From positions 1-20,076 of the IMG/VR virus record IMGVR_UViG_3300050015_000053: a stretch of DNA of 20,076 nt. One strand, given 5' to 3'. The notes under the pieces were generated by a model. The model searched no databases and was not told the origin of the DNA. It was given only the letters and a program-made list of their open reading frames with translations. The first letter of the stretch is position 1; each line of letters opens with the position of its first letter. Position numbers and translations under genes: made by a program. This stretch comes from a virus. Positions 2,921-18,099 of this stretch are shown one piece after another.

Positions 2921-3073
2921 ATGCTCACAGTAATTCTGGTTGTGCTTGTCATTATGTGCTTTGGAGGCGGATTCGCCTTCCCGGACCCGCAGTATCGTTA
3001 CGGCGGGGGCGCACTCGGCCTGATTCTGCTGGTCCTACTGATTTGCCTGTTGCTAGGACTCATTCACAGCTAG
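2921..3073 (+). CDS. DUF3309-like 50-residue membrane peptide
   Basis: This short frame encodes two hydrophobic stretches (MLTVILVVLVIMCFGG and GLILLVLLICLLLGLIH) separated by a loop with FPDPQYRYGGGALG. The pattern of hydrophobic, aromatic/Gly/Pro loop, then GLILLVLL, matches the small DUF3309 family, widespread in bacteria and of unknown function. A GAGGTG site lies ten bases before the ATG. A 57-base gap separates it from the upstream gene. Its TAG stop shares CTAG with the stop of the convergent endolysin gene. The short length lowers certainty, but the ribosome site and family pattern support it. Confidence 0.65.
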   Translation: MLTVILVVLVIMCFGGGFAFPDPQYRYGGGALGLILLVLLICLLLGLIHS

Positions 3074-3498
3074 ACGGGCGTATTAAATAGCTCTACCTCG
3101 GCCTCTCGCCGCGCCGTCAGGCCGGGGCTTGTGACCCCGTTGACGTGGTTCCAGCGCGGTATCTGGACTGGTACCTGGCCCCATCCGTGGGCAAGCATCT
3201 TCTTGAGCGCACCACCGCCGAGGTTGTAGCAGAAATCTATTAAGCTATCGTATTGATTCTGATTGGCTTGTGGTGCAATCTCATTTACCGTTGGCTCATA
3301 CCGGGCCATCAAGTCAGCCTGTAGTAAGGCCGCCGCTTGCTCGACGGTGATTCCGTTGACGTAGACCCCGGAGACGATCTCATGCTGCGTCAGGTCATGG
3401 CCGTAGCCGATGGCCGGATGGCCATTGTCGTTATAGACAGACAGGCGCACCCCTTCGTTTTTCCGAATAAACAGGATTCCGTTCTGCGATGTGACCAT
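3070..3498 (-). CDS. Endolysin, GH24 lysozyme (muramidase)
   Basis: This 142-residue T4-type lysozyme would cleave the MurNAc-GlcNAc bond of peptidoglycan at the end of infection. It contains FIRKNEGVRLSVYNDNGHPAIGYGH, with catalytic Glu (E15) and Asp (D24). It continues through QNQYDSLIDFCYNLGGGALK and closes with RWNHVNG...GLTARREAEVELF, the usual GH24 order at the usual length. The third active-site position, normally Thr before IGYGH, is Ala here (A29). There is no signal peptide or SAR helix, so it should depend on a holin. The start is ATG at 3498 with GGAGG upstream; a longer reading to 3585 runs through a hairpin and has no ribosome site. Confidence 0.9.
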   Translation of the reverse strand: MVTSQNGILFIRKNEGVRLSVYNDNGHPAIGYGHDLTQHEIVSGVYVNGITVEQAAALLQADLMARYEPTVNEIAPQANQNQYDSLIDFCYNLGGGALKKMLAHGWGQVPVQIPRWNHVNGVTSPGLTARREAEVELFNTPV

Positions 3499-3522
3499 TG
3501 CGTCCTCCGTGTGCCTGAATTG

Positions 3523-3629
3523 GTGTGGGGCAGCAGAGCCGAACTCACTAAACGATCCGCCTCTGAGGAACTCTGCCCCACACATGCGCGGGCCACTTTC
3601 GCCTTAGGAGCGGAGCAGCTACCCGCGCA
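3523..3629. promoter_or_regulatory. Two tandem long-loop inverted repeats in the endolysin leader
   Basis: The 135-base gap between the endolysin start and the upstream gene contains two adjacent hairpin-forming repeats. GTGTGGGGCAG at 3523-3533 pairs perfectly with 3573-3583 (11 bp, 39-base loop). TGCGCGGG at 3585-3592 pairs with 3622-3629 (8 bp, 29-base loop). They are separated by a single base and would both lie in the endolysin mRNA leader. No U-tract follows, so a simple intrinsic terminator is unlikely. A leader control element, processing site or small RNA are possible readings. Confidence 0.45.
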
Positions 3630-3633
3630 ATCT

Positions 3634-4299
3634 CTACTTTGCCAGCATAGCAACTTGCCAGATTATCTGCCATCCTGCCTTGACGTCGCCCCAAAACGTG
3701 TGTTTCTTGGGCGCATCAATCATCTTCTCGAAGTGGTCTGATACCTTGGCCGCGCTGCCGGTTATCGCTTCCGTGTGCTGCAAAACCGCGTCCAAGTCAA
3801 GGGAAGTAGTTTGGAGCGACGTGTCGAGGTTCGCAATCGACTTCTGGACTTGCACCTCTGCCACTCTAGCCTGCTCTAGGACGGGCTGCACGGCTGCAAT
3901 GGTAGTTCCAGCCGTCCCGATGGTCGCCGTCGCTGCCGTGGCCGTACCGGTGAGCGCCGTGGCGGTCCCTGAGAGGCTGTCTGCCGTCCCTGATAGGTGA
4001 ATGGCAGAATCCCTGAATGTGTCCATCGCCGCGATCACGTGTGGCGCCGTCGCACGTTCCTGTAGCTGCGTGGTCACAATGGCGTCTCCTACCTTGGTTT
4101 CCACTTTTATTCCATTCGCCAGTAAACCGCATGGCCCCGGAGCGCAAGGCCGATTTACCGTGTCCAGCGCCAGATTGAGCTTGTCGAGCGACGTACCAAG
4201 TTTGCCAACCACCCCATAGGCCGCAAAACCCACCGCCCCCAAAGCCAGAGAGGCCGTGAGGGCGAGGATTGCAAGGGCGGTTTGGAGCAGCCGATTCAC
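3634..4299 (-). CDS. Membrane-anchored Ala/Thr-rich helical protein, function unknown
   Basis: This 221-residue protein starts at GTG, overlapping the preceding stop (GTGA). One N-terminal transmembrane helix (residues 5-30) is followed by LNLALDTVNRPCAPGPCGLLANG, with a CxxxxC pair. A long Ala/Thr/Gly region follows (about 100-145) with degenerate SGTATALTGTATAAT repeats, then a helical or coiled-coil part and a C-terminal aromatic helix (FWGDVKAGWQIIWQVAML). It resembles uncharacterised phage proteins with an N-terminal anchor, an RPC-PCG segment and long helices. The position beside the endolysin suggests a virion- or lysis-associated membrane role, perhaps spanin-like, but no sequence motif proves this. 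Confidence 0.6.
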   Translation of the reverse strand: MNRLLQTALAILALTASLALGAVGFAAYGVVGKLGTSLDKLNLALDTVNRPCAPGPCGLLANGIKVETKVGDAIVTTQLQERATAPHVIAAMDTFRDSAIHLSGTADSLSGTATALTGTATAATATIGTAGTTIAAVQPVLEQARVAEVQVQKSIANLDTSLQTTSLDLDAVLQHTEAITGSAAKVSDHFEKMIDAPKKHTFWGDVKAGWQIIWQVAMLAK

Positions 4300-4715
4300 G
4301 CAGCCGGTGCGCCCGTTAAGGCCGTGGTCAGGTTATTGAGGTTCGTGACCACTGTATTCACGGTAGCGACACTCGCCGGGTTGACAACGTGTCCAGCTGC
4401 AAGCAAGGCGCTCAGGTTGGTTACAACGCTGCCGGTGATGCTGGCCGCTGTCGGGACCGCGCCGTAGTCATAGATGAATCCCGAAGCCGCTACGATACCA
4501 GCCTGAGCATCGGCAACCACCTTGCCAACCAATGCTCCGGCAGGACCACCGGCCTCGACTGTGACGATGGTTTGCAGGGCAGGGCCGGCATACTTGAGAA
4601 TGGCCGCTGCCGTTACTGCCAAGGCAGGAGCGTCCTTGTGAAGTAAGGACAGAACGCCCTCAGCCCATAGGCCAAATGTCTTTGCCGCCGATACGATGTT
4701 GCTGAAAAAGCTCAT
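4296..4715 (-). CDS. Ala-rich hydrophobic helical protein, function unknown
   Basis: This 139-residue Ala/Val-rich protein has an amphipathic N-terminus (MSFFSNIVSAAKTFGLWAEGVLSLL). Several moderately hydrophobic helices follow (LAVTAAAILKYAGPALQTIV, GALVGKVVADAQAGIVAASGF), then repeats of VVTNL near the C-terminus. There are no cysteines or clear catalytic residues. The ATG has GGAGAG upstream, and its stop overlaps the GTG of the next gene, so the two are probably made together. Similar small hydrophobic proteins occur near lysis genes of other phages. A holin-like or membrane-associated role is possible but unproven. Confidence 0.6.
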   Translation of the reverse strand: MSFFSNIVSAAKTFGLWAEGVLSLLHKDAPALAVTAAAILKYAGPALQTIVTVEAGGPAGALVGKVVADAQAGIVAASGFIYDYGAVPTAASITGSVVTNLSALLAAGHVVNPASVATVNTVVTNLNNLTTALTGAPAA

Positions 4716-4750
4716 GTGTCTCTCTCCAATACTGCGGGTTGATGGTGCGG

Positions 4751-4876
4751 TTAATCATCACACTTCTGCCAGCCAAAATTGCGGCAGAATAGTTTTGAGG
4801 TTCGGTAAAGAACTCCGCAATCCTCACAGATTGAGAGCTTACCGCAAGATAGCCAACAGATGAATCTTTTCAGCAT
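4751..4876 (-). CDS. 41-residue Cys-rich peptide, possible zinc knuckle
   Basis: This small frame has an excellent ribosome site (GGAGGAAGCG immediately before ATG) and ends at TAA. The peptide holds six cysteines: C7 and C11 in FICWLSCG, C17 and C20 in SICEDCG, C31 in LFCRN, and C39 in QKCDD. The CxxC pair plus the two downstream cysteines could bind one zinc ion. The N-terminus is basic and aromatic (MLKRFICWL). I recognise no family. It lies between the hydrophobic protein gene at 4296 and the flanked PAPS-reductase-like gene. The ribosome site and regular Cys pattern are the main arguments for a real gene. Confidence 0.55.
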   Translation of the reverse strand: MLKRFICWLSCGKLSICEDCGVLYRTSKLFCRNFGWQKCDD

Positions 4877-4949
4877 CGCTTCCTCCTCTGCCGTGTTCAA
4901 TCCGTCTCCCCTACGGCAGCTTGGGGCACGGTATCAGGTACGTTTTATT

Positions 4950-4973
4950 AGGGAATTATCACTTTAACTCCCT
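4950..4973. repeat. Left 24-bp inverted repeat / dyad flanking the PAPS-reductase-like gene
   Basis: This segment is the reverse complement of 5734-5757 with one mismatch. Each copy is itself an imperfect dyad of the form AGGGAnTTA-n6-TAAnTCCCT, like a repressor operator or a short RNA hairpin. This copy includes the TAA stop of the gene at 4964-5722 and lies 74 bases before the start of the Cys-rich peptide gene. It is preceded by TTTATT (4944-4949). Confidence 0.8.
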
Positions 4974-5722
4974 TGGTTGATTTCCTGCTCGGCGAGCACA
5001 CAGAACATCGAGCACTCAATCTCTGGTTCGTCATGCCGCCCGGCGCCCTCGGGGATGTCCTTGACGCCATAGCGCTCGCCGGTCTTGCGGTTGCGAAAAA
5101 AGTAACTACCGGGACCAAGAATCTCCTGAATCGTGACCATGTTCTGAAACTGGGCCGGGAAGACTTTGCGCGTAAGGTTCCAATAACCCTCGCCGCCCTT
5201 GGGGCAGCCGATGCAGTTGTTGTTGTTGAAGCCGAGCCGGTACATCATCGGGAGTTCGATTCCGGCGCGCTCGATGATGGCCAGGCAGTCAGCTTTGGTC
5301 AGCCCCCGGTCGATCAGCGGGGCGATGACCTGCCGTCCGTTGTTGGCATCGACGAACCTATTGAACCGATCGTACTCCTCGGCGGTGTAGCCGAGCGCCA
5401 TGATGTCATCAGGCAGCGCGATAGCTTCGAGCACATCCCGCTTCAGAGTCTTAGAGCAGCGCGAACCGCCATGACTCACCAGGAACTTGGCTTGCTTCCA
5501 GACCTCGACCGCCGATGCGCCGAACTTCTCGTCTCTCAGCCGCATGATGGGGTGACCGAACCACTGCTCGCACTGATCCATGAAGCGCTGATTATCCTCA
5601 TGCTCCTCGACCAAGAAGGCGTTGACGATCAAAATTCGTTCGCCGGGGAAATCGGACAGCAGTAGCTTGGTCGCCACCGCTGAGGCGGCACCGCACGAAA
5701 AATTTGAAACAATCCGATGCAT
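4964..5722 (-). CDS. PAPS reductase-like PP-loop family protein
   Basis: This 252-residue protein belongs to the phosphoadenosine phosphosulfate reductase/adenine nucleotide alpha hydrolase fold. The N-terminal PP-loop is SNFSCGAAS (residues 6-14), a variant of the classical SGGxDS. SRCSKTLKRD (C89) matches the C-x3-LK element of PAPS reductases. NNNNCIGCPKGG (C170, C173) and ECSMFC (C237, C241) add cysteines that could hold an iron-sulfur cluster. Relatives include phage PAPS-reductase-like proteins, DndC and thiouridine synthases. The reaction here is unknown, with sulfur transfer or nucleotide activation plausible. It starts at ATG with AAAGG upstream, directly beside the right 24-bp dyad. 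Confidence 0.75.
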   Translation of the reverse strand: MHRIVSNFSCGAASAVATKLLLSDFPGERILIVNAFLVEEHEDNQRFMDQCEQWFGHPIMRLRDEKFGASAVEVWKQAKFLVSHGGSRCSKTLKRDVLEAIALPDDIMALGYTAEEYDRFNRFVDANNGRQVIAPLIDRGLTKADCLAIIERAGIELPMMYRLGFNNNNCIGCPKGGEGYWNLTRKVFPAQFQNMVTIQEILGPGSYFFRNRKTGERYGVKDIPEGAGRHDEPEIECSMFCVLAEQEINQGS

Positions 5723-5733
5723 TTCAACCTTTC

Positions 5734-5757
5734 AGGGAGTTAAAGGGATAATTCCCT
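5734..5757. repeat. Right 24-bp inverted repeat / dyad upstream of the PAPS-reductase-like gene
   Basis: This copy lies 12 bases before the ATG at 5722, on top of or just upstream of the ribosome site. It has the same dyad form, AGGGAnTTA-n6-TAAnTCCCT, as the copy at 4950-4973 but in opposite orientation. Its place suggests either an operator or leader hairpin controlling the gene, or the outer end of an inserted cassette. TTTATT follows directly at 5758-5763, and a small GGGTC-TG-GACCC inverted repeat lies at 5765-5776. Confidence 0.8.
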
Positions 5758-5801
5758 TTTATTAGGGTCTGGACCCTGCATTTGGCATCACCGCCCTTTC
5801 G

Positions 5802-6131
5802 CTACTTGGTTACGTTGGGGTCAGCCGCGTCTACCTGCTTGACCGTAGGCGTGTCCGGCGCTGCTTTGATTTCCCTTGCCAATGCCAGCGTGCCAGCCGG
5901 GGAGTTGGACGTGCGATACCAGACGTATACGCCAATGACCGCCGTTGCAATCTCCTCAACCCATGATGGCAGGGCCGCATAGACGTGCTGGGCAAGCGTG
6001 CGGAAGTCGGGAACGTTGGCATAGCAAAGGACCGCTCCGGCAAACAGGAGGGCCATGACGTGCGAGAATCCGCCCTTCGCTGCGATGAACGACGCTACGC
6101 GGTTGATGAGGCTATCAAACAGGTTGGTCAT
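5802..6131 (-). CDS. Holin-like two-helix membrane protein
   Basis: This 109-residue protein has two predicted transmembrane helices, HVMALLFAGAVLCYANV (about 24-40) and WVEEIATAVIGVYVWYR (about 57-73), joined by a short loop. The N-terminus is amphipathic and the C-terminal tail is hydrophilic and charged. Size and topology fit phage holins or the membrane proteins that accompany them. Its neighbours include an XhlA-like protein and, further on, the endolysin, which also fits. The start at 6131 follows AGAGGG and lies within the end of the ribbon-helix-helix gene (17-base overlap). No family signature is recognised, so the holin call rests on topology and context. Confidence 0.55.
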   Translation of the reverse strand: MTNLFDSLINRVASFIAAKGGFSHVMALLFAGAVLCYANVPDFRTLAQHVYAALPSWVEEIATAVIGVYVWYRTSNSPAGTLALAREIKAAPDTPTVKQVDAADPNVTK

Positions 6132-6282
6132 GTTTTACCCTCTTCTTGTATTCAGACTTGCGACTCCGCAGCACCGCTTCCTTCAGCGCGTTATCGACAA
6201 AGAGCTGAACAGGTACCCGCACTATCGCCGCTTGCAGTTTAACGGCTTGGTGAGTTGTTTCCTCGATCTTGACTGTCTTCAT
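6115..6282 (-). CDS. Ribbon-helix-helix DNA-binding protein (Arc/CopG-like)
   Basis: This 55-residue basic protein begins MKTVKIEETTHQAVKLQAA, then IVRVPVQLFVDNALKEAV, and ends with a Lys/Arg-rich tail. A short beta strand with alternating residues, a helix starting at TTHQAVK, and a second helix ending NALKEAV match the ribbon-helix-helix fold of Arc/CopG repressors and antitoxins. Such dimers bind short palindromic operators. No toxin gene is adjacent, so a phage regulator is more likely than an antitoxin. The ATG at 6282 has only a weak ribosome site; a TTG at 6366 would give a longer form inside the upstream gene. The family call is moderate. Confidence 0.6.
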   Translation of the reverse strand: MKTVKIEETTHQAVKLQAAIVRVPVQLFVDNALKEAVLRSRKSEYKKRVKHDQPV

Positions 6283-6331
6283 AAAGCCACAATACCACTT
6301 GTACGCTAGGCCGTCAAACTGCGGCCTCTTC

Positions 6332-6628
6332 TCAGTGCTTCGCCCATATCCATGTTGCGCTGGCAATCGCCGCGATCACAGCCCATGTGACCTGTAGCAC
6401 TGTCCATAGGCGACTTGTTGAGTTTTCATTTTCACGTAGACGGCGGTGCAATTCCGGCAGCGGAGAGGTGTTAGCTTTAATCTCAGCGAGCGTTGTCCCG
6501 TGCTCATTGATCGTGTTACGAATGCCCTCGATTGTTCTTTCAATCTGGAGCATCCGCGACGCAGCCGCCTCACGCGCTTCTTTCGCCAAGTCCGCTATCA
6601 TAGTTTCTGCTGTCGTAGATTCGGCCAT
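6332..6628 (-). CDS. XhlA-like coiled-coil protein with C-terminal membrane anchor
   Basis: This 98-residue protein has a long charged helix or coiled coil (about residues 10-75, with AKEAREAAASRMLQIERTI and a second segment around LHRRLRENENS). It ends in one transmembrane helix (TVLQVTWAVIAAIASATWIW). This architecture matches the haemolysin XhlA family, small phage proteins that sit at the membrane and act with holin and endolysin. The start at 6628 has AGGAGA upstream; a longer reading to 6709 has no such site. It lies between the repeat protein gene and the ribbon-helix-helix gene. Architecture is clear; family membership is inferred. Confidence 0.55.
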   Translation of the reverse strand: MAESTTAETMIADLAKEAREAAASRMLQIERTIEGIRNTINEHGTTLAEIKANTSPLPELHRRLRENENSTSRLWTVLQVTWAVIAAIASATWIWAKH

Positions 6629-6725
6629 CTGCTTATCTCCTGGCCCTAGCATCTGGCCCCGTTGTGCGCCCCGGCTTACTACCTCAGCGCGTTCGTGTTC
6701 CGCTTGCAAATCGTCCCTGCCGCCC

Positions 6726-9700
6726 TCAATTTACTTGCCAAGAAACGCTGCTCACATCCGTAGTCGCAATGGTATCCGTCGCGGTCAGGGAGTTGATAAC
6801 AAAGCTGCTTCCCGCGCTGATCGTTCCAACGCTCAAATTTCCTATGACCACGCTAGAGTTGGTAGCATAGCGAGTTAGAGAATAATGGCAACTGCTGCTG
6901 ACAGCGCAGGCCGCTGTCGAGTTCACCGTGACCGTACCAGAGACGAGGGTCGCGGTGCCACTGATACTCGTAGTCACATACCCCGCCGCTGGACCCTGAT
7001 AGCCGAGAGCCGTCAAGGGAATGACTGGGCCGTTGGCGTTGAACAGTGAGCCGAAATAATACGTTCCGGTTGTCGTTGAATTGCCTAGTGTCGTTGTGTT
7101 GCTGCCGTGGCCGATGGCGGTGTTTCCGATTACATTTTCGTTCGTATCGCCAGAGGCAAGCGGATAGGCTTGAAAGCCCTCATAAAGCGAGTTGCTGCTG
7201 GTTTGATTGGCGGTTACGCCCCCCGCGATGTATTGTCCCGCCGCGTACCCATTCGCGGTGTTGCTGGAGCCGGTGGTGTTGGCTTGGAGCGCATACATCC
7301 CATTCGCGGTGTTGTCGATGCCGGTGGTGTTAGAGAAGAGCGCATACATCCCATTCGCGGTGTTGTTGCTGGAGCCGGTGGTGTTGTCGTAGAGCGCATA
7401 CATCCCATTCGCGGTGTTGTTGCTGCCGGTGGTGTTGTCGTTGAGCGCCCGAAACCCATTCGCGGTGTTGCTGGAGCCGGTGGTGTTGGCTTGGAGCGCA
7501 TACATCCCATTCGCGGTGTTGTCGATGCCGGTGGTGTTAGAGAAGAGCGCATTCACCCCATTCGCGGTGTTGCCGGAGCCGGTGGTGTTGGCGTAGAGCG
7601 CCTGATACCCATTCGCGGTGTTTTGGGAGCCGGTGGTGTTGACGTTGAGCGCCGCGTACCCATTCGCGGTGTTGTAGGAGCCGGTGATGTTGGCTTGGAG
7701 CGCATGCATCCCATTCGCGGTGTTGCTGTTGCCGGTGCCAGTCAGGTTTCCCGCTCCACCAGAGTAGTAGTTATTGAGTGATGTCTGCGCCTGGAGAGCA
7801 GGAACCCCATTTAACAAAACACCGTTCGATCCTATAGTCGTTGGTGTCGCAGCGCCAGCCGCGACGGTGCCGGAGAATGTTCCGTTGACCGCGCCGGTTA
7901 GGGAGCCAGCATGAAGGGACGCCGTGCCGTCTGTGATGGTCGCGCCCTGGACCGTGCCTGGGAACGCACTCACCTGCGACGACGTGCCCAGCGTTCCCGT
8001 CTGCGTTACGCCGGTGATGGCAAGGTTCGCTCCCGCTGCGGTGGTTGCGCCCGTGCCGCCCGACGCCGGAAGCAATGGTGATCCAAGCGTCTCACTGCCC
8101 GCCGCGACGGCGCCTGAGAACGATGCGCTGGTGCCATTGAGTGCGCCGTTTTGATAGAGTATGCCGTTGATGTATGTGCCAACCGTGGCCGTGTTTCCGA
8201 TTGTCGTTGTGTTGCTGCCGTTCCCAACTGCTCCGTTGCCAATTACATTTTCATTCGTATCGCCAGAGGCAAGCGGATAGGCTTCGTAGCCCTCGTACAC
8301 TGAGCTACTGCTAGTCTGATTGGGTGTTGCGCCATCCGCGATGTATTGTCCCGCCTGGACCCCATTCGCGGTGTTGTTGCCGCCGGTGGTGTTGAAGTAG
8401 AGCGCCGCAAGCCCATTCGCGGTGTTGTTGCTGCCGGTGGTGTTGGAGTAGAGCGCCTGAAGCCCATTCGCGGCGTTGTTGCTGCCGGTGGTGTTGAAGT
8501 AGAGCGCCTGAAACCCATTCGCGGTGTTGTTGTAGCCGGTGGTGTTGGAGTAGAGCGCCTGAAACCCATTCGCGGCGTTGTTGTTGCCGGTGGTGTTGTA
8601 GAAGAGCGCCGCAAACCCATTCGCGGTGTTGTTGTTGCCGGTGGTGTTGAAGTAGAGCGCCGCGTACCCATTCGCGGTGTTGCTGTTGCCGGTGGTGTTG
8701 GCGTAGAGCGCCTGATACCCATTCGCAGTGTTGTAGTAGCCGGTGGTGTTGAAGTAGAGCGCCTGAAACCCATTCGCGGCGTTGTTGTTGCCGGTGGTGT
8801 TGAAGTTGAGCGCATTCACCCCATTCGCGGTGTTGCCGGAGCCGGTGGTGTTGGCGTAGAGCGCCGCGTACCCATTCGCGGTGTTGCTGTTGCCGGTGGT
8901 GTTGAAGTTGAGCGCATTCACCCCATTCGCGGTGTTGCCGGAGCCGGTGGTGTTGGCGTAGAGCGCCTGATACCCATTCGCGGTGTTGCTGGGGCCGGTG
9001 GTGTTGGCGGAGAGCGCCTGAAACCCATTCGCAGTGTTGTAACTGCCGGTGGTGTTGGCGTAGAGCGCCTGATACCCATTCGCGGTGTTGCTGGGGCCGG
9101 TGCCAGTCAGGTTTCCCGCTCCACCGGAGTAGTAGTTATTTAGCGATGTCTGTGACTGGAGAGCGGGAACCCCATTTAACAAAACACCGTTCGATCCTAT
9201 AGTCGTTGGTGTCGCAGCGCCAGCCGCGACGGTGCCGGAGAATGTTCCGTTGACCGCGCCGGTTAGGGAGCCAGCATGAAGGGACGCCGTGCCGTCTGTG
9301 ATGGTCGCGCCCTGGACCGTGCCTGGGAACGCACTCACCTGCGACGACGTGCCCAGCGTTCCCGTCTGCGTTACGCCGGTGATGGCAAGGTTCGCTCCCG
9401 CTGCGGTGGTTGCGCCCGTGCCGCCATTGGCGGTTGGAACGATACCTGCTGCGACAGCCAGTGAGGGTGTAGTCGTTGGATTTGTCACGGTAGGCACTAG
9501 CCATGAAGGCCATGAGCCGGAGGGTGCAGAGACATTAGTCACACTGCCTTCTGCGGCTCCAATAGCGTCCGGCACACCGCTCACGCACACATACATCTGC
9601 GTATTCGGCCATCCTGCCAAAAATACCGGCAATGATCCTGAGCAAGTTGTAGGCACCGTCGGATACGACACCAGTCCGCCATAGCTCGGATTCACGACCC

Positions 9701-9890
9701 ACTGCCATGCCAGATTGTAGTAGCTGCACGTATAGACCGTCGCAGGGCTGGTGCCTGTATTCGTGTAGAGAGCACCCGCGTTTGCAGATGTGCAATAGGG
9801 AGGCGGCGGCGGAGTGTTGCCGCTCGTCTGCGCATGGATGGGGAAAGCCATGCAACCGAGAAAAATTAGTGCTGCAAATATCCGCTTCAT
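6726..9890 (-). CDS. Secreted repeat-rich fibre/adhesin-like protein with duplicated module
   Basis: This 1054-residue protein lies in the tail fibre position. The N-terminus is a typical signal peptide (K2-R3, hydrophobic core, cleavage after IHA at residue 20). A small domain follows with four cysteines (C33, C55, C83, C102). Then come a linker (about 156-265), fourteen full 17-residue repeats of type NTANGxxALxxNTTGxx (to about 510), and a cap with ENVIGNGAVGNGSNTTTIGN. A second copy follows: linker (about 611-720), nine repeats, cap, and a C-terminal Thr/Ser/Val-rich domain. The repeats recall beta-solenoid heads of trimeric adhesins and phage fibres. AAGGAGA precedes the ATG. It may be a virion fibre or a secreted host-surface adhesin; the export signal favours the latter. 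Confidence 0.75.
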   Translation of the reverse strand: MKRIFAALIFLGCMAFPIHAQTSGNTPPPPPYCTSANAGALYTNTGTSPATVYTCSYYNLAWQWVVNPSYGGLVSYPTVPTTCSGSLPVFLAGWPNTQMYVCVSGVPDAIGAAEGSVTNVSAPSGSWPSWLVPTVTNPTTTPSLAVAAGIVPTANGGTGATTAAGANLAITGVTQTGTLGTSSQVSAFPGTVQGATITDGTASLHAGSLTGAVNGTFSGTVAAGAATPTTIGSNGVLLNGVPALQSQTSLNNYYSGGAGNLTGTGPSNTANGYQALYANTTGSYNTANGFQALSANTTGPSNTANGYQALYANTTGSGNTANGVNALNFNTTGNSNTANGYAALYANTTGSGNTANGVNALNFNTTGNNNAANGFQALYFNTTGYYNTANGYQALYANTTGNSNTANGYAALYFNTTGNNNTANGFAALFYNTTGNNNAANGFQALYSNTTGYNNTANGFQALYFNTTGSNNAANGLQALYSNTTGSNNTANGLAALYFNTTGGNNTANGVQAGQYIADGATPNQTSSSSVYEGYEAYPLASGDTNENVIGNGAVGNGSNTTTIGNTATVGTYINGILYQNGALNGTSASFSGAVAAGSETLGSPLLPASGGTGATTAAGANLAITGVTQTGTLGTSSQVSAFPGTVQGATITDGTASLHAGSLTGAVNGTFSGTVAAGAATPTTIGSNGVLLNGVPALQAQTSLNNYYSGGAGNLTGTGNSNTANGMHALQANITGSYNTANGYAALNVNTTGSQNTANGYQALYANTTGSGNTANGVNALFSNTTGIDNTANGMYALQANTTGSSNTANGFRALNDNTTGSNNTANGMYALYDNTTGSSNNTANGMYALFSNTTGIDNTANGMYALQANTTGSSNTANGYAAGQYIAGGVTANQTSSNSLYEGFQAYPLASGDTNENVIGNTAIGHGSNTTTLGNSTTTGTYYFGSLFNANGPVIPLTALGYQGPAAGYVTTSISGTATLVSGTVTVNSTAACAVSSSCHYSLTRYATNSSVVIGNLSVGTISAGSSFVINSLTATDTIATTDVSSVSWQVN
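7248..7736 (-). repeat. 51-bp tandem repeat array, distal block (9 full units plus a terminal one)
   Basis: Units begin with the conserved CCCATTCGCGGTGTTG (plus-strand sense) at 7248 and recur to 7710. The spacing is nine units, eight of 51 bp and one of 54 bp (9 x 51 + 3 = 462). They encode NTANGxxALxxNTTGxx. The 54-bp unit carries an extra Asn codon (SSNNTANG). Variation is concentrated at the paired x positions. Confidence 0.9.
7731..8060 (-). repeat. 330-bp direct repeat, copy 2
   Basis: This segment is repeated at 9096-9425 with a constant offset of 1365 bases. About the last 240 bases look identical, with a handful of substitutions in the first 80 or so. It encodes the linker GGTGATTAAGANLAITGV... 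through NNYYSGGAGNLTG of the fibre protein, marking an in-frame duplication of a 455-residue module. Confidence 0.9.
8361..9099 (-). repeat. 51-bp tandem repeat array, proximal block (14 full units plus a terminal one)
   Basis: The unit core CCCATTCGCGGTGTTG (plus-strand sense) recurs from 8361 to 9075 at an exact 51-bp period (714 bases, 14 periods). Some units carry a GGCGTTG variant that changes Thr to Ala (NAANG). The encoded repeat is NTANGxxALxxNTTGxx, with Tyr, Phe, Val, Leu, Asn and Gln alternating at the variable pairs. Confidence 0.9.
9096..9425 (-). repeat. 330-bp direct repeat, copy 1
   Basis: This is the first-encoded copy of the linker segment found again at 7731-8060. After it (plus-strand direction) the two copies diverge abruptly at the CCGTGCCGCC boundary, which gives a sharp edge to the duplication. 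Confidence 0.9.
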
Positions 9891-9900
9891 TGCGTTCTCC

Positions 9901-10785
9901 TTAGAGTGTAAATGAAACCTCTGTCCAAGTTACCGTCGTAGAACTCGGAGTAGAGCCAAATGTTCCATACGTAACTTCAAACGTGCTTCCAGCGGGAACC
10001 CAAAAAGACATAGAGTTTGTGCCTTGACACTCGTTAGATACGCCGCAGGACGCTACCACAACTCCATCCACGCTCGCCGTAAGATAAGCATTAGCCCCAG
10101 TACACTCTGATGCTAAAAGCGACGAATACATGACCTCTTCACATACCGCAGCCTCGGTGCTGTTCGTGTAGGTAGTACCTGTTACGTATGTTCCAGTCTT
10201 CGAGGTGCGAACGCAGTTGAATCCGCTTCCACCGTTCGCCGCCGCCGTTACCTGCCCTGCCGCGTTCACTGTGATATTGGCCCCGGTGTAGCTTCCCGCC
10301 GTGACCCCCGTTGGTGTGATCGTAGCCGCCGCACTGCCAGGTCCTGTCGCTGTCACCGGGCCGGTAAGCGCCGTGATCGCGTTCTCGTCAGATGCCGCCC
10401 ATCCCGCGCCGCCTGTATCCGGGTCAGTCACGTTGTTATCTGTCGTGCTGACCCAGTATCCGTTGCCGCTGGCCATCAGAACGCGAGCACCCTTTGGATA
10501 GCCGCCGATTGCGGTCTGGAAAGCGGAGTTGTACGGGAAACCGCCGCCCGCGCACATCCAAACATCTATAGCCGACATCTGGAACAAACCGCCATTCATA
10601 TCCTGCATTGAAGGCGGAATACCACCCGATATAAGCGGGGTGTCGCAAAGCGGAGGGAACCCTGTCGTCCATGATGCCGCGCCGGGGGTAATTCCAACTT
10701 GAGACGGAACGGGGATCGGGTTGGTCTTGCTCCCCGACGTTGCCCAGGCCTCAACGATTTGTACTGGTACTTGGCTCAGTTGCAT
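9901..10785 (-). CDS. Tail fibre protein
   Basis: This 294-residue protein carries the N-terminal signature of many phage fibres. PPSMQDMNGGLFQMSAIDVWMCAGG is followed by AFQTAIGGYPKGARVLMASGNGYWVSTTDNNVTDPDTGGAGW. It continues with a Thr/Ala/Gly-rich shaft (ALTGPVTATGPGSAAATITPTGVT). The C-terminal domain, about 100 residues, contains five cysteines (FNCV, AVCEE, SECTG, ASCGV, NECQG), unusual for a cytoplasmically assembled fibre. No signal peptide is seen, unlike the next gene. It follows the DUF2612 baseplate gene by seven bases, with GAGGG upstream of the ATG. It probably attaches to the baseplate and contributes to receptor binding. Confidence 0.8.
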   Translation of the reverse strand: MQLSQVPVQIVEAWATSGSKTNPIPVPSQVGITPGAASWTTGFPPLCDTPLISGGIPPSMQDMNGGLFQMSAIDVWMCAGGGFPYNSAFQTAIGGYPKGARVLMASGNGYWVSTTDNNVTDPDTGGAGWAASDENAITALTGPVTATGPGSAAATITPTGVTAGSYTGANITVNAAGQVTAAANGGSGFNCVRTSKTGTYVTGTTYTNSTEAAVCEEVMYSSLLASECTGANAYLTASVDGVVVASCGVSNECQGTNSMSFWVPAGSTFEVTYGTFGSTPSSTTVTWTEVSFTL

Positions 10786-10792
10786 TGTTCCC

Positions 10793-11365
10793 TCACGCTA
10801 CAGCAAATGGATTTCCATCGCCCATAAATGGCGCTTGCCCAAACGGTGCCGCTCCATCCGTCATTCCCTTGAACCCAAAAACCGGGAGAGCGGTGTTGAC
10901 CATCCACCCGCCCACGCCCGCCGGTCTCAAGAAAATACCGCTCTGAGTAATAATATCAATCTCGAACGGCGCTAGAACAAACTCAAACATGTACCGGATT
11001 TCCATGTTGCCGAGATCGCTGACGTAGGCTCTTCCCCGCCCTGCCATCCAATCCATGAGCAAGGTGTTGATGGAATAGGAGCTTGCCCGCGAAATGTTGC
11101 TCAGAGCTTTGAGTAGAATCAACTCTAAATACTGCGCGTCGGTCAGAACCGTTGCGGGATTCGTGGGGATGATTCTTGACACTCCAACCACGCGCCCCCA
11201 TATATCAAGCCCAAAACCTTGCGCTGTATCTACCTGCCAAACGTGAGTAAGGAAGTTGTCGATGTCAGCAGAGGGATCGACCGCCGCGTTAAAAGATTCG
11301 ATGAGCGCAAGGATAGTTGGCGAATTTCCGTACTGGCTCACAACGGTTTGGAGAACATTATTCAT
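10793..11365 (-). CDS. Baseplate protein, DUF2612 family
   Basis: This 190-residue protein contains WQVDTAQGFGLDIWGRVVGVSR near residues 43-64, the signature of phage DUF2612. A region with YLELILLKALSNISRASSYSINTLL follows. These proteins occupy the position of Mu gp48 or P2 gpI, directly downstream of the gpJ-like gene. They are thought to complete the baseplate rim and connect it to the tail fibres, which fits the fibre gene that follows. The ATG overlaps the preceding stop (ATGA). The assignment rests on the conserved motif and gene order. Confidence 0.85.
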   Translation of the reverse strand: MNNVLQTVVSQYGNSPTILALIESFNAAVDPSADIDNFLTHVWQVDTAQGFGLDIWGRVVGVSRIIPTNPATVLTDAQYLELILLKALSNISRASSYSINTLLMDWMAGRGRAYVSDLGNMEIRYMFEFVLAPFEIDIITQSGIFLRPAGVGGWMVNTALPVFGFKGMTDGAAPFGQAPFMGDGNPFAVA

Positions 11366-12573
11366 ATAGCCGTCACCGTGATATTCGACACATCAAGAGT
11401 GGGCGCCTGGTCGATTCCCATTGTCACATCGTTAAGCGTAGCGGGGCCAGAGAGGCCCACAAGGATGCTGACAAGAGACACGCCAGGAACCGCTGCAAAT
11501 ATGGCTCCCGTGTAACTCAACGCCAGAATCATTGAAGCGATTCCGGCAGGCGTGTTGCCATTCTCTCCGTTAAACTGAGCGACAATCGCATTCTTAATCA
11601 GCGTCGCATAATCTGACGGCAACGATGCGGCATTGGTGACGGTGACTGCGAAATATACAGGCATCCCCGTTGGGATATTGAACGTCACCGCGTAGGCTGG
11701 CTGCGGGGCTGCGTACCTGGTATCGTAGACGGTTTCGGTTGTGTTCCCGTTGTAGTTGCACCCGCCGTCTTTTGCGTTCCAGATTGCTTGTGCGATTGCG
11801 CTGGCCGAGCCGCCAACGACCGCAACATAAATCGAGTGCGGGGCAAGGGGGTAATTTGTCGATCCATAGTCCACCGTATTTCCTGAAGGGTTGTCAATCA
11901 CATAGCAGTCGAGAACGCCTGCGACAGCGTATACGTTGGCGAAAATGGCATCTGTCGTCCCATGGCTGTTGAGTGCCACTGAGTTCTGCCGGCGTAGCTC
12001 GAAAGCCTGAGAGCTTTCCACGTCAGAGCCTAGAATCCCCGCTGAGGCGTTTGTTACCGTATCCCAGCCCGGAACTGTCTGGTATAGCTGCGTAAGCGCA
12101 CCAGCAGGGCAGGGAATCGGCCCTGTGGCGACATTAGCGAACTCTGCCGGAACTGTTCCGTCCATCCCGATGTTCACAGAGCCAAGAAGCTGATAGACAT
12201 TCTGAGAAGTGTCAAGAGCGAGAACGCCTGCCGGTATATAGCTGCCCGGAATTCCCCCGATGGTTGCAATCACAACCGTGGAAGAGGCTGCGTTGCGCGT
12301 CATAAAGTAGAATCTTCCGATTGCGTCCTGGAAACGCCCCTCAGCATATTGCGGGTCGATCTGGTTTACCACGTAGGCTATGGCGCTATTCTTGTCTGAA
12401 ATGATTGCCGAGTTGCTAGATGCAATCTGGCCTTGAGGTGTGGAGAGCGAAGGATTTACGCCCCCGCCAAAAGCATTATTGATGTCTGACTGCTCACCGG
12501 CAAGGATCGCCGCATCAGTCGGTAGAACGACACCCTCTGGCGTCCATATTATCGGCGGTACGCTTGTGCTCAT
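11362..12573 (-). CDS. Baseplate J-like protein (gpJ / Mu gp47)
   Basis: This 403-residue protein has the usual length and layout of baseplate J proteins. The N-terminal part has IDPQYAEGRFQDAIGRFYFMTRNAASSTVVIATIGGIPGSYIPAG (a hydrophobic beta-rich segment). A middle region contains ESSQAFELRRQNSVALNSHGTTDAIFANVYAVAGVLDCYVIDNPSG, and the C-terminal third carries VTVTNAASLPSDYATLIKNAIVAQFNG. Family members form the baseplate wedge with gpI- and gpW-type proteins. It overlaps its upstream neighbour by TGATG and its downstream neighbour by ATGA, as expected for subunits of one complex. Confidence 0.9.
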   Translation of the reverse strand: MSTSVPPIIWTPEGVVLPTDAAILAGEQSDINNAFGGGVNPSLSTPQGQIASSNSAIISDKNSAIAYVVNQIDPQYAEGRFQDAIGRFYFMTRNAASSTVVIATIGGIPGSYIPAGVLALDTSQNVYQLLGSVNIGMDGTVPAEFANVATGPIPCPAGALTQLYQTVPGWDTVTNASAGILGSDVESSQAFELRRQNSVALNSHGTTDAIFANVYAVAGVLDCYVIDNPSGNTVDYGSTNYPLAPHSIYVAVVGGSASAIAQAIWNAKDGGCNYNGNTTETVYDTRYAAPQPAYAVTFNIPTGMPVYFAVTVTNAASLPSDYATLIKNAIVAQFNGENGNTPAGIASMILALSYTGAIFAAVPGVSLVSILVGLSGPATLNDVTMGIDQAPTLDVSNITVTAI

Positions 12574-12935
12574 CAGATATTCACCGTAACGCTAGTCCCG
12601 TCCGTGGTTGTGAACTGCACCTGGCCGCTGACCTCACGGCCCGCAATTGAAGTGATGATTGTGTTGACTGTAGCCACTCCAGGAACGCTCAATGCCGCGT
12701 TATTCAATGCCGTTGTGACCTGTGATGACGTGGGATTCTGGCCTAAAAGTTGCTGCCAATAGGCCACGCCTTGAGAAGTGTCGTACCAAAGCTCTCCCAA
12801 AAACAGCCGTATCGCACTCGCCACGTCCTGCGCGACGGCGTAGGGCGGGGCGGCAAGCGCAATCGACCCATTGGAGTCGAGAACTAAATCCCAAGCTGAA
12901 TTGTCCAAAAGCAGCGTATTGGCTGGCGAACTCAT
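12573..12935 (-). CDS. Baseplate wedge protein, gpW/gp25-like
   Basis: This 120-residue protein fits the gp25/gpW position and pattern. It has AQDVASAIRLFLGELWYDTSQGVAYWQQLLG (residues about 35-65), then VTTALNNAALSVPGVATVNTIITSIAG and a C-terminal beta strand pair. The helix with LFLGELWYD and the later GV-VNTI-segment are typical of the family whose conserved Glu anchors the wedge. It lies between the spike and gpJ-like genes, which is the usual order. ATGA and TGATG overlaps link it to both neighbours. The sequence is divergent, so order contributes much to the call. Confidence 0.75.
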   Translation of the reverse strand: MSSPANTLLLDNSAWDLVLDSNGSIALAAPPYAVAQDVASAIRLFLGELWYDTSQGVAYWQQLLGQNPTSSQVTTALNNAALSVPGVATVNTIITSIAGREVSGQVQFTTTDGTSVTVNI

Positions 12936-13636
12936 GCGATTGGTCCTCCAGTATTTGAACTACCTGATGTTACCCCTATGTGTTTGTGCGTTGCAAACGG
13001 GATTCCATCAAATGTGCTGCCTGTGAGATCAGCCACAACGTCACCGCCCACTGTCAGATCTTCCGCCATGGTCACATTGCCCCCGCCTTGGGCCACAGCG
13101 CCCTGTAGAACGATGTTGGGAGCCTGGAGGGTGATAGTGTCAGGGGAGACGATTGTGACGCCTCCTGAGCCAAACTGGACGTACTGAACAGGGATTCCAT
13201 TTAACAGACCGCCCAGATACATCCCGTCCGCGAAGTCATGTGTCCTGAAACTACCGGGGTTCGCTTGGGCTTTCGTGCTTTTGACGTTCGTGATGTCCCG
13301 GCTGGCGAAAACTGCAATCCCAATGTCTCCTGGTTGTGGATCGATAATGATTGCGTTCGCTCCACCTTGAACTCGCAGGTATGGAAGTCCGTACATCGTC
13401 AGGTGCGGAGTGCCTACCATCTGCCCGCCCGCGCCGATGCTTACCTGATTCGCTAAAATCTGTACATCGACTGTTCCTACTGGAGATATTCCGCCACTGT
13501 TTGAGCAAGCAACGACTTTGACGATTGTCGCAGTCTGCACGTTTGCAAGAGCTTGCTCTATGACAAAACGGATATTGTTATAGACCCCCCAAAGGGTTGC
13601 GGGGCGTAACATTCCAAGAGGATTGAATGAACTCAT
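12932..13636 (-). CDS. Baseplate spike, gp138/gpV-like
   Basis: This 234-residue protein has an N-terminal OB-like domain (GTVDVQILANQVSI...LPYLRVQGGANAIIIDPQPGDIGIAVFASRDITNVK). The segment NPGSFRTHDFADGMYLGGLLN follows, then a beta-helical stalk (VTIVSPDTITLQAPNIVLQG). The end is FATHKHIGV...NTGGPIA, with a THKH motif. The HxH near the tip is where phi92 gp138 and P2 gpV bind an iron ion. The trimer should pierce the outer membrane during contraction, which points to a Gram-negative host. The start overlaps the hub gene by ATGA. Confidence 0.88.
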   Translation of the reverse strand: MSSFNPLGMLRPATLWGVYNNIRFVIEQALANVQTATIVKVVACSNSGGISPVGTVDVQILANQVSIGAGGQMVGTPHLTMYGLPYLRVQGGANAIIIDPQPGDIGIAVFASRDITNVKSTKAQANPGSFRTHDFADGMYLGGLLNGIPVQYVQFGSGGVTIVSPDTITLQAPNIVLQGAVAQGGGNVTMAEDLTVGGDVVADLTGSTFDGIPFATHKHIGVTSGSSNTGGPIA

Positions 13637-15564: not shown

Positions 15565-17330
15565 CACAGTGACCCCGAATTGGCTGGACTCACTGTCAGC
15601 CAATCCATATTCCGGCTCATATCCTTCCAGATACTTTGAGCGTCTGTCGCCAGGGTGTGGATGTCGATATGTCCAAAATGGTTTGTTACGCTCCTGTCAA
15701 TCGACGAAACCTGCGATCCCGCTGTCGGGAAAGGTCCACGGAGCGTCGAAGATGCTGAAGGAATCCCGATAACCGGGCTAGGATTCGCGGCTCCTGATAC
15801 TTTTCCCGTCTGCCATTTACTTAGCGTTTGCGCATCGTTCAATCCGGCATAAGACTTGCTCTGTAGAAGTGCGTACATCGCACTCCACCCGGTCCCTTCG
15901 TCGGGAAATACGGCAATCTGCTTTCCGCCCTGTGCGGTTTTGTATCCAGTCGCTCCATGGTCAACGGCGAACTTCCCGTACTCAATATCTCCGGGGTTAT
16001 GGGCCTCTTGTGGGATGTTTGGACTTTCACCCTTCGCATAGAACCCTTCAGCATTGGCTATCTTTTGCCCACGTGCGCGAGTCTCGTCCGATACGCCATT
16101 AACCTTGACCCCCGCCTCTCCCCATAGAGTCATGTTATTCCACCACCACTTCAACCCCTTTTTAACCGCTCCTTCGGGTACGTTGACCCCCTGGGAACGC
16201 AACCAGTTCTCAAATCGTTCTGTCGCATCCTCGATTCTGTCCCCCAGCCATTTGAAAGCGTCTCCCGCCTTGCGGATGTTGCTCTCAAACTGGCTCCAAT
16301 CGAACAGGCTGGCCCCGCCATGGCTCCAGGAAGAGTAATCCAAGGTAAGGCCCGTAAAAGCCGCTGCGAGGGCTGCTATGGCCGCTACAACGAGCAGGAT
16401 GGGGCCTGAGATTTCAATCGTGGAAAGGAATAATACCCCCATCGCCACACTCACCGCTCCGATTCCAGCCGCAAGCGCCGCCATGAAGGCCGCTACCGCG
16501 GTTTGATGGGCAAGGCACCAATTCAGCCCACCCTCTAACAAAGCAAAGAATTTCTCCAAAATCGGCGTAACGGTTTCGAGGAGTTCGTACCCCAGCTTAT
16601 TGAACTGCGCATGGAGAAGCGCAAGCTGCATAGTCATCTGCGCGGCACTGGAAACATTCTGATTCGTGGGAGAGAGCTTTCGCGCCTGCTCTAACATCGC
16701 CGCAAATTGACGGGGGTTCTCGAAAAGAAGATTGGCAACTCCAGTAGGCATACCGGCCTGTTGGAACCATGCAAACACCTGTTCGCGGTTCTTTCCCTGC
16801 GCCCACTTCGCCATGTCTTGAAGTTCATCAAGGGCAGACCGAGCTTTACCCTTGCTGTCGATCATGGCAACGCCCATCTTCCCTAAGATTGGAATGAGCG
16901 AAGAACCAAGGCCATTTGAAAGATTCAGGCTTTCGGTTGCCAGATGAGCAATGTATCCCTGCATCTCTTGTGCAGACCCGCCCACCATCGTAGAGGCGAT
17001 TCCCCACGCTGACAATGCCTGCACGGGGATGTTTAGATTTTTCGAGAGAAAACCAAGCTGTGTGTTTGTTGCAATCGCTTGCATCGTGAACTGGCGCAAT
17101 GCAACAGTTCCGCCAATCAACGCAAGGAACGCGGCCATCTTCCCGGCAAGAGAGGTAAGTTCCTCCCCTGTGCCCTTAGATGCCTTGGAGATTCCGCTGA
17201 TTCCCTTGCTGGCCGAGTCTCCGCTTTTTTCAAGGTCTTTAAGTTTCTGGCGAACGCCGGGAGCCTTCGCATCTACATCCTTCGTGTCGAGCGAAAGTGA
17301 TACTATGAGGCTGTCAATTAATGTGGGCAA
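15564..17330 (-). CDS. Tail tape measure protein (TTG start)
   Basis: This 588-residue protein begins LIDSLIVSLSLDTKDVD, typical of tape measures, and continues as helix with LKDLEKSGDSASKGISGISKAS. Hydrophobic segments lie near residues 62-80 and 275-330 (FMAALAAGIGAVSVAMGVLF, GPILLVVAAIAALAAAF). The C-terminal third holds a domain with NAEGFYAKG, AHNPGDIEYG and IAVFPDEGTGWSAMYALL, reminiscent of lysozyme-like NPGN domains in phage structural proteins. The only usable start is TTG at 17330 (AGAGG upstream); an in-frame stop lies seven codons before it. It overlaps the end of the homing endonuclease gene. At about 0.15 nm per residue the tail would be roughly 88 nm. Confidence 0.88.
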   Translation of the reverse strand: MPTLIDSLIVSLSLDTKDVDAKAPGVRQKLKDLEKSGDSASKGISGISKASKGTGEELTSLAGKMAAFLALIGGTVALRQFTMQAIATNTQLGFLSKNLNIPVQALSAWGIASTMVGGSAQEMQGYIAHLATESLNLSNGLGSSLIPILGKMGVAMIDSKGKARSALDELQDMAKWAQGKNREQVFAWFQQAGMPTGVANLLFENPRQFAAMLEQARKLSPTNQNVSSAAQMTMQLALLHAQFNKLGYELLETVTPILEKFFALLEGGLNWCLAHQTAVAAFMAALAAGIGAVSVAMGVLFLSTIEISGPILLVVAAIAALAAAFTGLTLDYSSWSHGGASLFDWSQFESNIRKAGDAFKWLGDRIEDATERFENWLRSQGVNVPEGAVKKGLKWWWNNMTLWGEAGVKVNGVSDETRARGQKIANAEGFYAKGESPNIPQEAHNPGDIEYGKFAVDHGATGYKTAQGGKQIAVFPDEGTGWSAMYALLQSKSYAGLNDAQTLSKWQTGKVSGAANPSPVIGIPSASSTLRGPFPTAGSQVSSIDRSVTNHFGHIDIHTLATDAQSIWKDMSRNMDWLTVSPANSGSL

Positions 17331-18099
17331 ATTGAGCCTCTTTTCTCATCTGCGCATATTGCCTATTTTTGCCCGCAGATATGCGAGCTTTCCATTCATC
17401 TGAAAACGCGGGGCGCTTTCTTCCCTTTAGAGAAGCAGCTCTCTTCTCTCTTGTCTCTACCGATTGCGTTTTTCCTAAATGAGACAAAGATAGATTCTTT
17501 CTAGTCTCAATAGAACGCTTCTGACCTCGATTAGAGGCTGACAGTTGTGCTCTTGTTTTCGCAGATACAATGTGACCCTTGAGAGATTCTGATCTCTTGG
17601 CTATTGTCTCTTTAGATTGAGGCCCAAATTTTTTCCCCTTTTTGGTAGATGGCTGGCCACGTCTCGACTCGGACATCTTCCTTTTTGATTCTGCGGAATG
17701 ATGTTTCCCTTTCATCGGATGACCATCTTTAGCTAGTTGAGCTTTGGTGAGGGAAGACAGTTTAGACCTTGTTTCCCCGGAATGCACAAGACCTGATTGG
17801 CCCTCGCCGCCTAACGTCAGGTTGTAACCGCGTCCTAGGGGAGCAAAGGTTTCATATACTGCAATGAAGTGCTTTTCGAGATCATTGAGTTGATGAATCT
17901 CGCAGGATGCGATCTCAACTATAGAGAAATTGTGGACGCCATATTTACGCATTGCGGCATGGAGCGCATAGGCAGACCCGATTTTAGATTGTGTTTTATG
18001 TTGCGAAAATCGGAGTGATACAGATTTCTCAGTCTTGCCAATATAGGCTTTCCCGTTGAGAAGGTTACGAATTAGGTAGATGTAACCTTTCGTGGGCAT
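17314..18099 (-). CDS. GIY-YIG homing endonuclease with NUMOD3 repeats
   Basis: This 261-residue basic protein begins GYIYLIRNLLNGKAYIGKT (residues 5-23), the GIY-YIG nuclease core. Catalytic Arg is at R30 (SLRFSQH) and Glu at E75 (LNDLEKHFI), closing with GYNLTLGGEG. The rest is a chain of about six NUMOD3-like units (SAESKRKMSESRRGQ, SKETIAKRSESLKG, SAKTRAQLSASNRGQ, SIETRKNLSLSHLGK, SVETREKRAASLKGRK), which bind DNA. The gene is visibly more AT-rich than its neighbours, as expected for an acquired mobile gene. It starts three bases after the chaperone frame ends and overlaps the tape measure start by 17 bases. It is free-standing; no intron is evident. Confidence 0.92.
   Translation of the reverse strand: MPTKGYIYLIRNLLNGKAYIGKTEKSVSLRFSQHKTQSKIGSAYALHAAMRKYGVHNFSIVEIASCEIHQLNDLEKHFIAVYETFAPLGRGYNLTLGGEGQSGLVHSGETRSKLSSLTKAQLAKDGHPMKGKHHSAESKRKMSESRRGQPSTKKGKKFGPQSKETIAKRSESLKGHIVSAKTRAQLSASNRGQKRSIETRKNLSLSHLGKTQSVETREKRAASLKGRKRPAFSDEWKARISAGKNRQYAQMRKEAQFAHIN

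Follow-up and report, generated by a model that had tools for sequence, protein, structure and literature searches.

Llp of phage T5 and Cor of T1 and phi80 are small superinfection-exclusion lipoproteins that block or mask the receptor, and the prophage-encoded Eib is, like YadA, a trimeric autotransporter adhesin. Llp is periplasmic and disulfide-bonded, and its gene is adjacent to and downstream of that for pb5 (PMC9586334). The window analyzed here, the whole 20,076-nucleotide stretch of viral DNA (IMG/VR record IMGVR_UViG_3300050015_000053), carries a much larger gene in the corresponding place, directly downstream of a receptor-binding protein gene and separated from it by a 10-bp gap. 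Its product is fibre-like and begins with a predicted export signal. The reading that we favour, at a probability of roughly one half, is that this gene encodes a late, Sec-exported, non-virion protein resembling an adhesin or depolymerase, which would act in the envelope or be released at lysis.

The gene (6726..9890, minus strand) is an open frame with homologues found by scan and with purifying selection on its N-terminal domain, and its product has 1054 amino acids. A good ribosome site, TAAGGAGAACGCAATG, precedes its start ATG at position 9890. The gap to the upstream gene (9891..9900, minus strand) holds the GGAG ribosome site and leaves no room for a promoter; a promoter scan found no convincing promoter belonging to the gene itself. 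Upstream lie a canonical tail fibre of 294 amino acids without a signal peptide (9901..10785, minus strand; phrog_12796 tail fiber, E 1e-38) and then a DUF2612 tail protein (10793..11365, minus strand; PF11041, E 1.5e-40). The first-pass annotation had recognized the signal peptide and four-cysteine N-terminal domain, and both are confirmed, but the gene that it placed at the fibre position sits one gene downstream of the canonical fibre. Further tail genes of the window surround an inserted gene (17314-18099, minus strand) that by eye resembles a GIY-YIG homing endonuclease with NUMOD-like repeats and adjoins a tape measure-like gene.

The region downstream of the exported gene (3070..6709, minus strand; ORF list with Pfam and phrog matches) includes membrane-protein-like small ORFs, a lysozyme gene (3070-3585, minus strand), a weak spanin-like match (3634-4299, minus strand) and, between the exported and lysozyme genes, a PAPS reductase-like gene (4964-5722, minus strand; phrog_424, E 1e-40). 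Pseudomonas phage Orisa01 and Xanthomonas phage XapPhi1 have the fibre N-terminus in common with the window, and their fibre genes are followed by small genes and then by lysis genes only. The exported gene therefore looks like an addition in the group to which the window belongs.

The predicted protein consists of a Sec signal peptide, a four-cysteine domain of about 90 residues, two arrays of a 17-residue repeat and a C-terminal tip, with cysteines at positions 13 (within the signal peptide), 33, 55, 83, 102, 995 and 1001. Residues 1-20 (9831..9890, minus strand), MKRIFAALIFLGCMAFPIHA, are followed by QTSGNTPPPPP, and cleavage is predicted before Q21. These residues form a textbook signal peptide, with a KR n-region, a hydrophobic core and an A-Q junction that fits the -3/-1 rule. 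By the single, simple rule-based detector used for all signal-peptide calls (not SignalP), the sequence has the n, h and c regions and the small -3/-1 residues of a substrate for Sec and type I signal peptidase. By the same detector, the gene immediately downstream of the fibre scores as having a signal peptide in 17 of 22 cases, versus two of 142 upstream genes and none of 24 fibre genes, so that the enrichment occurs only behind the fibre and exceeds chance. The five misses are L003, in which the actual start is internal to a longer frame, L066 and L067, from which the gene is absent, and L011 and L068, where the second gene is the exported one.

A signal peptide precedes every homologous N-terminal domain whose start is readable. 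Over 91 pairs of 14 genes, mean pairwise identity is 0.33 in the signal peptide versus 0.81 in the mature domain, and all aligned signals still begin with a positive charge, continue into a hydrophobic core and end in a small residue (A or S) before the conserved Q. Because the letters diverge while the chemistry and cleavage site are kept, export is the trait that is conserved, and this combination is the strongest evidence that it matters. The earlier claim that the protein is exported is thus very probable. Canonical tail fibres are made and assembled in the cytoplasm and have no export signal; here one is conserved in the homologues, and the neighbouring fibre lacks one. For a fibre-like protein with a bacterial export signal, export from the cytoplasm of the infected cell is the most likely fate, rather than incorporation into the tail. 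Modular exchange of the signal peptide at the cleavage site also appears to have occurred in two contigs (L018, 6001-6345; L019, 5950-6285), where unrelated signal peptides, 27% identical, stand before identical mature N-terminal domains.

The mature N-terminal domain (residues 21-115; 9546..9830, minus strand) was aligned from 15 loci, which are the window, 13 viral contigs and one probably mis-binned contig of a metagenome-assembled genome (MAG). Cysteines 33, 55, 83 and 102 are invariant in all 15, identity to the window ranges from 72% to 96%, the mature domains are about 81% identical to one another, and the median dN/dS of 0.073 over 48 measurable pairs indicates purifying selection. Cysteine content was rejected as proof of export, and by itself is weak evidence for it, because the upstream tail fibre, which has no signal peptide, also contains seven cysteines.

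The repeat arrays (consensus NTANGxxALxxNTTGx) occupy residues 268 to about 893 (7212..9089, minus strand) as 15 copies starting at residue 268 and, after a linker, a second array of 10, for 25 in all. AlphaFold2 (AF2) places strands every 17 residues in the second array, with pLDDT of about 60-75. The AF2 models are poor overall (pLDDT 54 for the N-terminal domain and 49 for the repeat plus tip); Foldseek found nothing significant, and a sequence search found no relative in the PDB. Long open frames also run antisense to the arrays (7107-7781 and 8346-9143, plus strand), most likely as a by-product of the 51-base repeat and not as genes. The tip (residues 955-1054; 6729..7028, minus strand) contains cysteines 995 and 1001 and resembles the tip in contig L007. 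Beyond repeats and tip, the Pfam scan recognized no enzyme domain in the window protein, for which nothing more specific than a role as an adhesin-like or shielding protein can be proposed. At an E-value of 0.1, Pfam matched neither a YadA anchor nor the S74 intramolecular chaperone, the C-terminus being a different tip. Neither the N-terminal domain nor the tip has a significant match in isolated phages, nor do the exported proteins of L023 and L007.

The C-terminal parts of the exported proteins form many unrelated groups and are exchanged freely. In other exported proteins, the modules that pass the curated cut-off include a GDSL esterase (L068) and BNR (L015) and NHL (L019 and L015) propellers, and matches of pectate-lyase and endosialidase type in L003 and L032 fall below it. 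In L033, a second exported-looking gene (11985-12785) that follows the exported fibre-like gene has a LamG lectin-like match (PF13385, E 1e-17), also above the cut-off. These enzyme, lectin and propeller modules belong to sister genes and not to the window protein.

Scans of viral contigs returned 24 loci with the whole protein and 15 with the N-terminal domain. The fibre type occurs in 26 contigs, whose nature suggests that they are soil phages. Among the 19 that are readable beyond the fibre, 14 have the same N-terminal domain and three (L062, L063 and L068) have an exported-looking protein with another one, so that an exported gene lies behind the fibre in 17; the remaining two (L066 and L067) have none, and the gene is therefore accessory. 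The homologue search proposed by the first-pass annotation, which had asked whether relatives are secreted or virion proteins, gave a mixed answer. The repeat is found both in marine-phage and coliphage fibres, without a signal peptide, and in a Bacteroidota protein that has one. Signal-like starts precede unrelated N-terminal domains in other soil phages that have only the repeat part in common (L002, L007, L009, L011, L013/L014, L015 and L023), and are absent from same-repeat proteins of L004, L010, L012, L024, L025 and the isolated phages examined.

Several contigs carry other exported-looking genes. L007 has five consecutive signal-peptide-like genes (5233-13347; 705, 425, 702 and 719 amino acids, and one cut off) behind a tail fibre. 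L009, another phage type, has an exported-looking repeat protein (5695-6939) amid head-like genes. A small exported-looking protein, which might be an outer-membrane barrel, is encoded near the lysis genes of L074 (3999-4511, minus strand; MRKLALALLFAAFSLAQGQ...) and L002 (9069-9599; LKRFIVFASASMLVISATIGGAQ...). Two scans of genome contigs matched a single contig, L043 (JAGWWT010000050.1), in a Patescibacteria MAG. Its tetranucleotide signature agrees better with most phages (0.44-0.60; L066, 0.27) than with contigs of the MAG itself (0.16-0.33); mis-binning is therefore probable, and a Patescibacteria host is not inferred. Group-related phage contigs (L074/L084; G021:C63) are also binned in a Patescibacteria MAG, to which their signature is a poor match.

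Several other functions could be imagined for such a protein. It might block or mask the receptor against superinfecting phages, as do Llp of T5 and Cor of the T1 group. We consider this explanation unlikely. The position of the gene and the export of its product are as for Llp, but the protein exceeds 1000 residues instead of being a small lipoprotein. It also has no conserved lipobox: the FLGC of the window is unlike the usual one, and the signals of L016, L019, L022 and L032 contain no cysteine. Moreover, its N-terminal domain does not track the fibre tip, and masking through a common tip was rejected, as the exported C-termini and fibre tips are alike only in generic linkers. Display on the host during lysogeny, in the manner of prophage-encoded trimeric autotransporters, is quite improbable. 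A signal peptide, an adhesin-like architecture of short repeats and the signal-bearing Bacteroidota protein with the same repeat would suit it, but the C-terminal anchor is absent, and the gene is part of a tail operon, with the fibre gene 10 bases upstream of it and no convincing separate promoter. No integrase occurs in 20 related records, which are probably fragments, and a resolvase is present in only one distant record. The suggestion that the protein is made during lysogeny is accordingly unsupported; that of a host-surface adhesin is possible, but no outer-membrane anchor domain was found. It is very improbable that the hydrophobic start serves no export, with translation beginning at M14 or the segment staying uncleaved in a cytoplasmic fibre; M14 is present, and nothing beyond it favours this, whereas the ribosome site is at the first ATG and the signal chemistry is kept across unrelated letters.

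The protein could also be exported, fold with disulfides in the periplasm and, when the cell lyses, join virions to form a side fibre or spike. A constant N-terminal domain with variable, fibre- or spike-like C-terminal parts is also the look of a virion-anchored receptor protein, which counts against the reading that we favour, and the repeat matches proteins annotated as virion structural (phrog_23837, phrog_6002 and cyanophage records). A virion-docking part would, however, be expected to follow the virion. L027 has the same N-terminal domain at 84% identity, although the genes of its baseplate region either match those of the window at 25-32% identity or show no detectable similarity, with the caveat that its fibre tip is 71% identical over 109 amino acids and may have been acquired together with the adjoining N-terminal domain as one DNA segment. 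L011 shares the backbone of L027 (baseplate J, 96%) but has a different exported N-terminal domain. At least six unrelated fibre tips accompany the N-terminal domain of the window type. That it tracks neither virion backbone nor fibre tip argues against a docking function. In addition, none of the fibres examined in isolated phages that bear the repeat has a signal peptide, and we know of no tailed phage with a virion protein that is exported and then attached. We regard this alternative as rather unlikely. A broader idea, similarly doubtful, is that soil phages share an exchangeable set of Sec-exported, disulfide-folded spikes that virions pick up at lysis or that stay free as weapons. If true, exported spikes would constitute a second receptor and polysaccharide toolkit built outside the cytoplasm.

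If the protein is instead a non-virion adhesin or depolymerase-like factor, its gene would be expressed late with the tail operon, the host Sec machinery would export the product, and signal peptidase I would cleave it. Once outside the cytoplasm, the four-cysteine domain would probably be stabilized by disulfides, and the repeats of 17 residues may form a beta-solenoid shaft. Rather than joining the tail during cytoplasmic assembly, the protein would remain in the periplasm or envelope until lysis and then be released beside the virions. In the window phage, the exchangeable C-terminal part may bind a surface or matrix polysaccharide; where relatives have an esterase, propeller or beta-helix-like module, such a polysaccharide is probably processed. 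The earlier suggestion of a bacterial adhesin on its way to becoming a fibre fits poorly with an export signal kept across a soil-phage family and with the normal fibre encoded next door.

Routine annotation treats fibre- or spike-like genes beside tail fibres as encoding receptor-binding proteins of the virion. Since the export signals here are maintained while their letters change, that annotation and the host-range predictions derived from it could be wrong for a whole group of soil viruses. The locus points to a phage strategy in which glycan-binding or glycan-cutting proteins, encoded in arrays of up to five genes, use the host export route. In the open-access literature, covered mostly as titles and abstracts, no account of soil phages with exported tail-fibre-like proteins was found.

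Each known system shares part of this architecture. The trimeric autotransporters YadA and Eib are likewise exported and built from short beta-rich repeats, but the window protein has no YadA anchor or outer-membrane translocator. The fibres of Pelagibacter phage HTVC111P, Roseobacter phage CRP-1 and Methylophilales phage Venkman contain the same kind of NTxxG repeat (46-54% identity); unlike the window protein, they have no signal peptide and end in what by eye is an S74-like tail. Llp and Cor are also exported from genes directly behind a receptor-binding protein gene, and a disulfide is present in Llp and likely in the window protein, which is not a lipoprotein and is far larger and fibre-like. 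Phage tail fibres and tailspike depolymerases have in common with it a repeat shaft, fibre-type linkers, exchangeable C-terminal modules and adjacency to the fibre gene. The window protein differs from these in its Sec signal peptide and conserved four-cysteine N-terminal domain, and a normal fibre without a signal is encoded just upstream of it.
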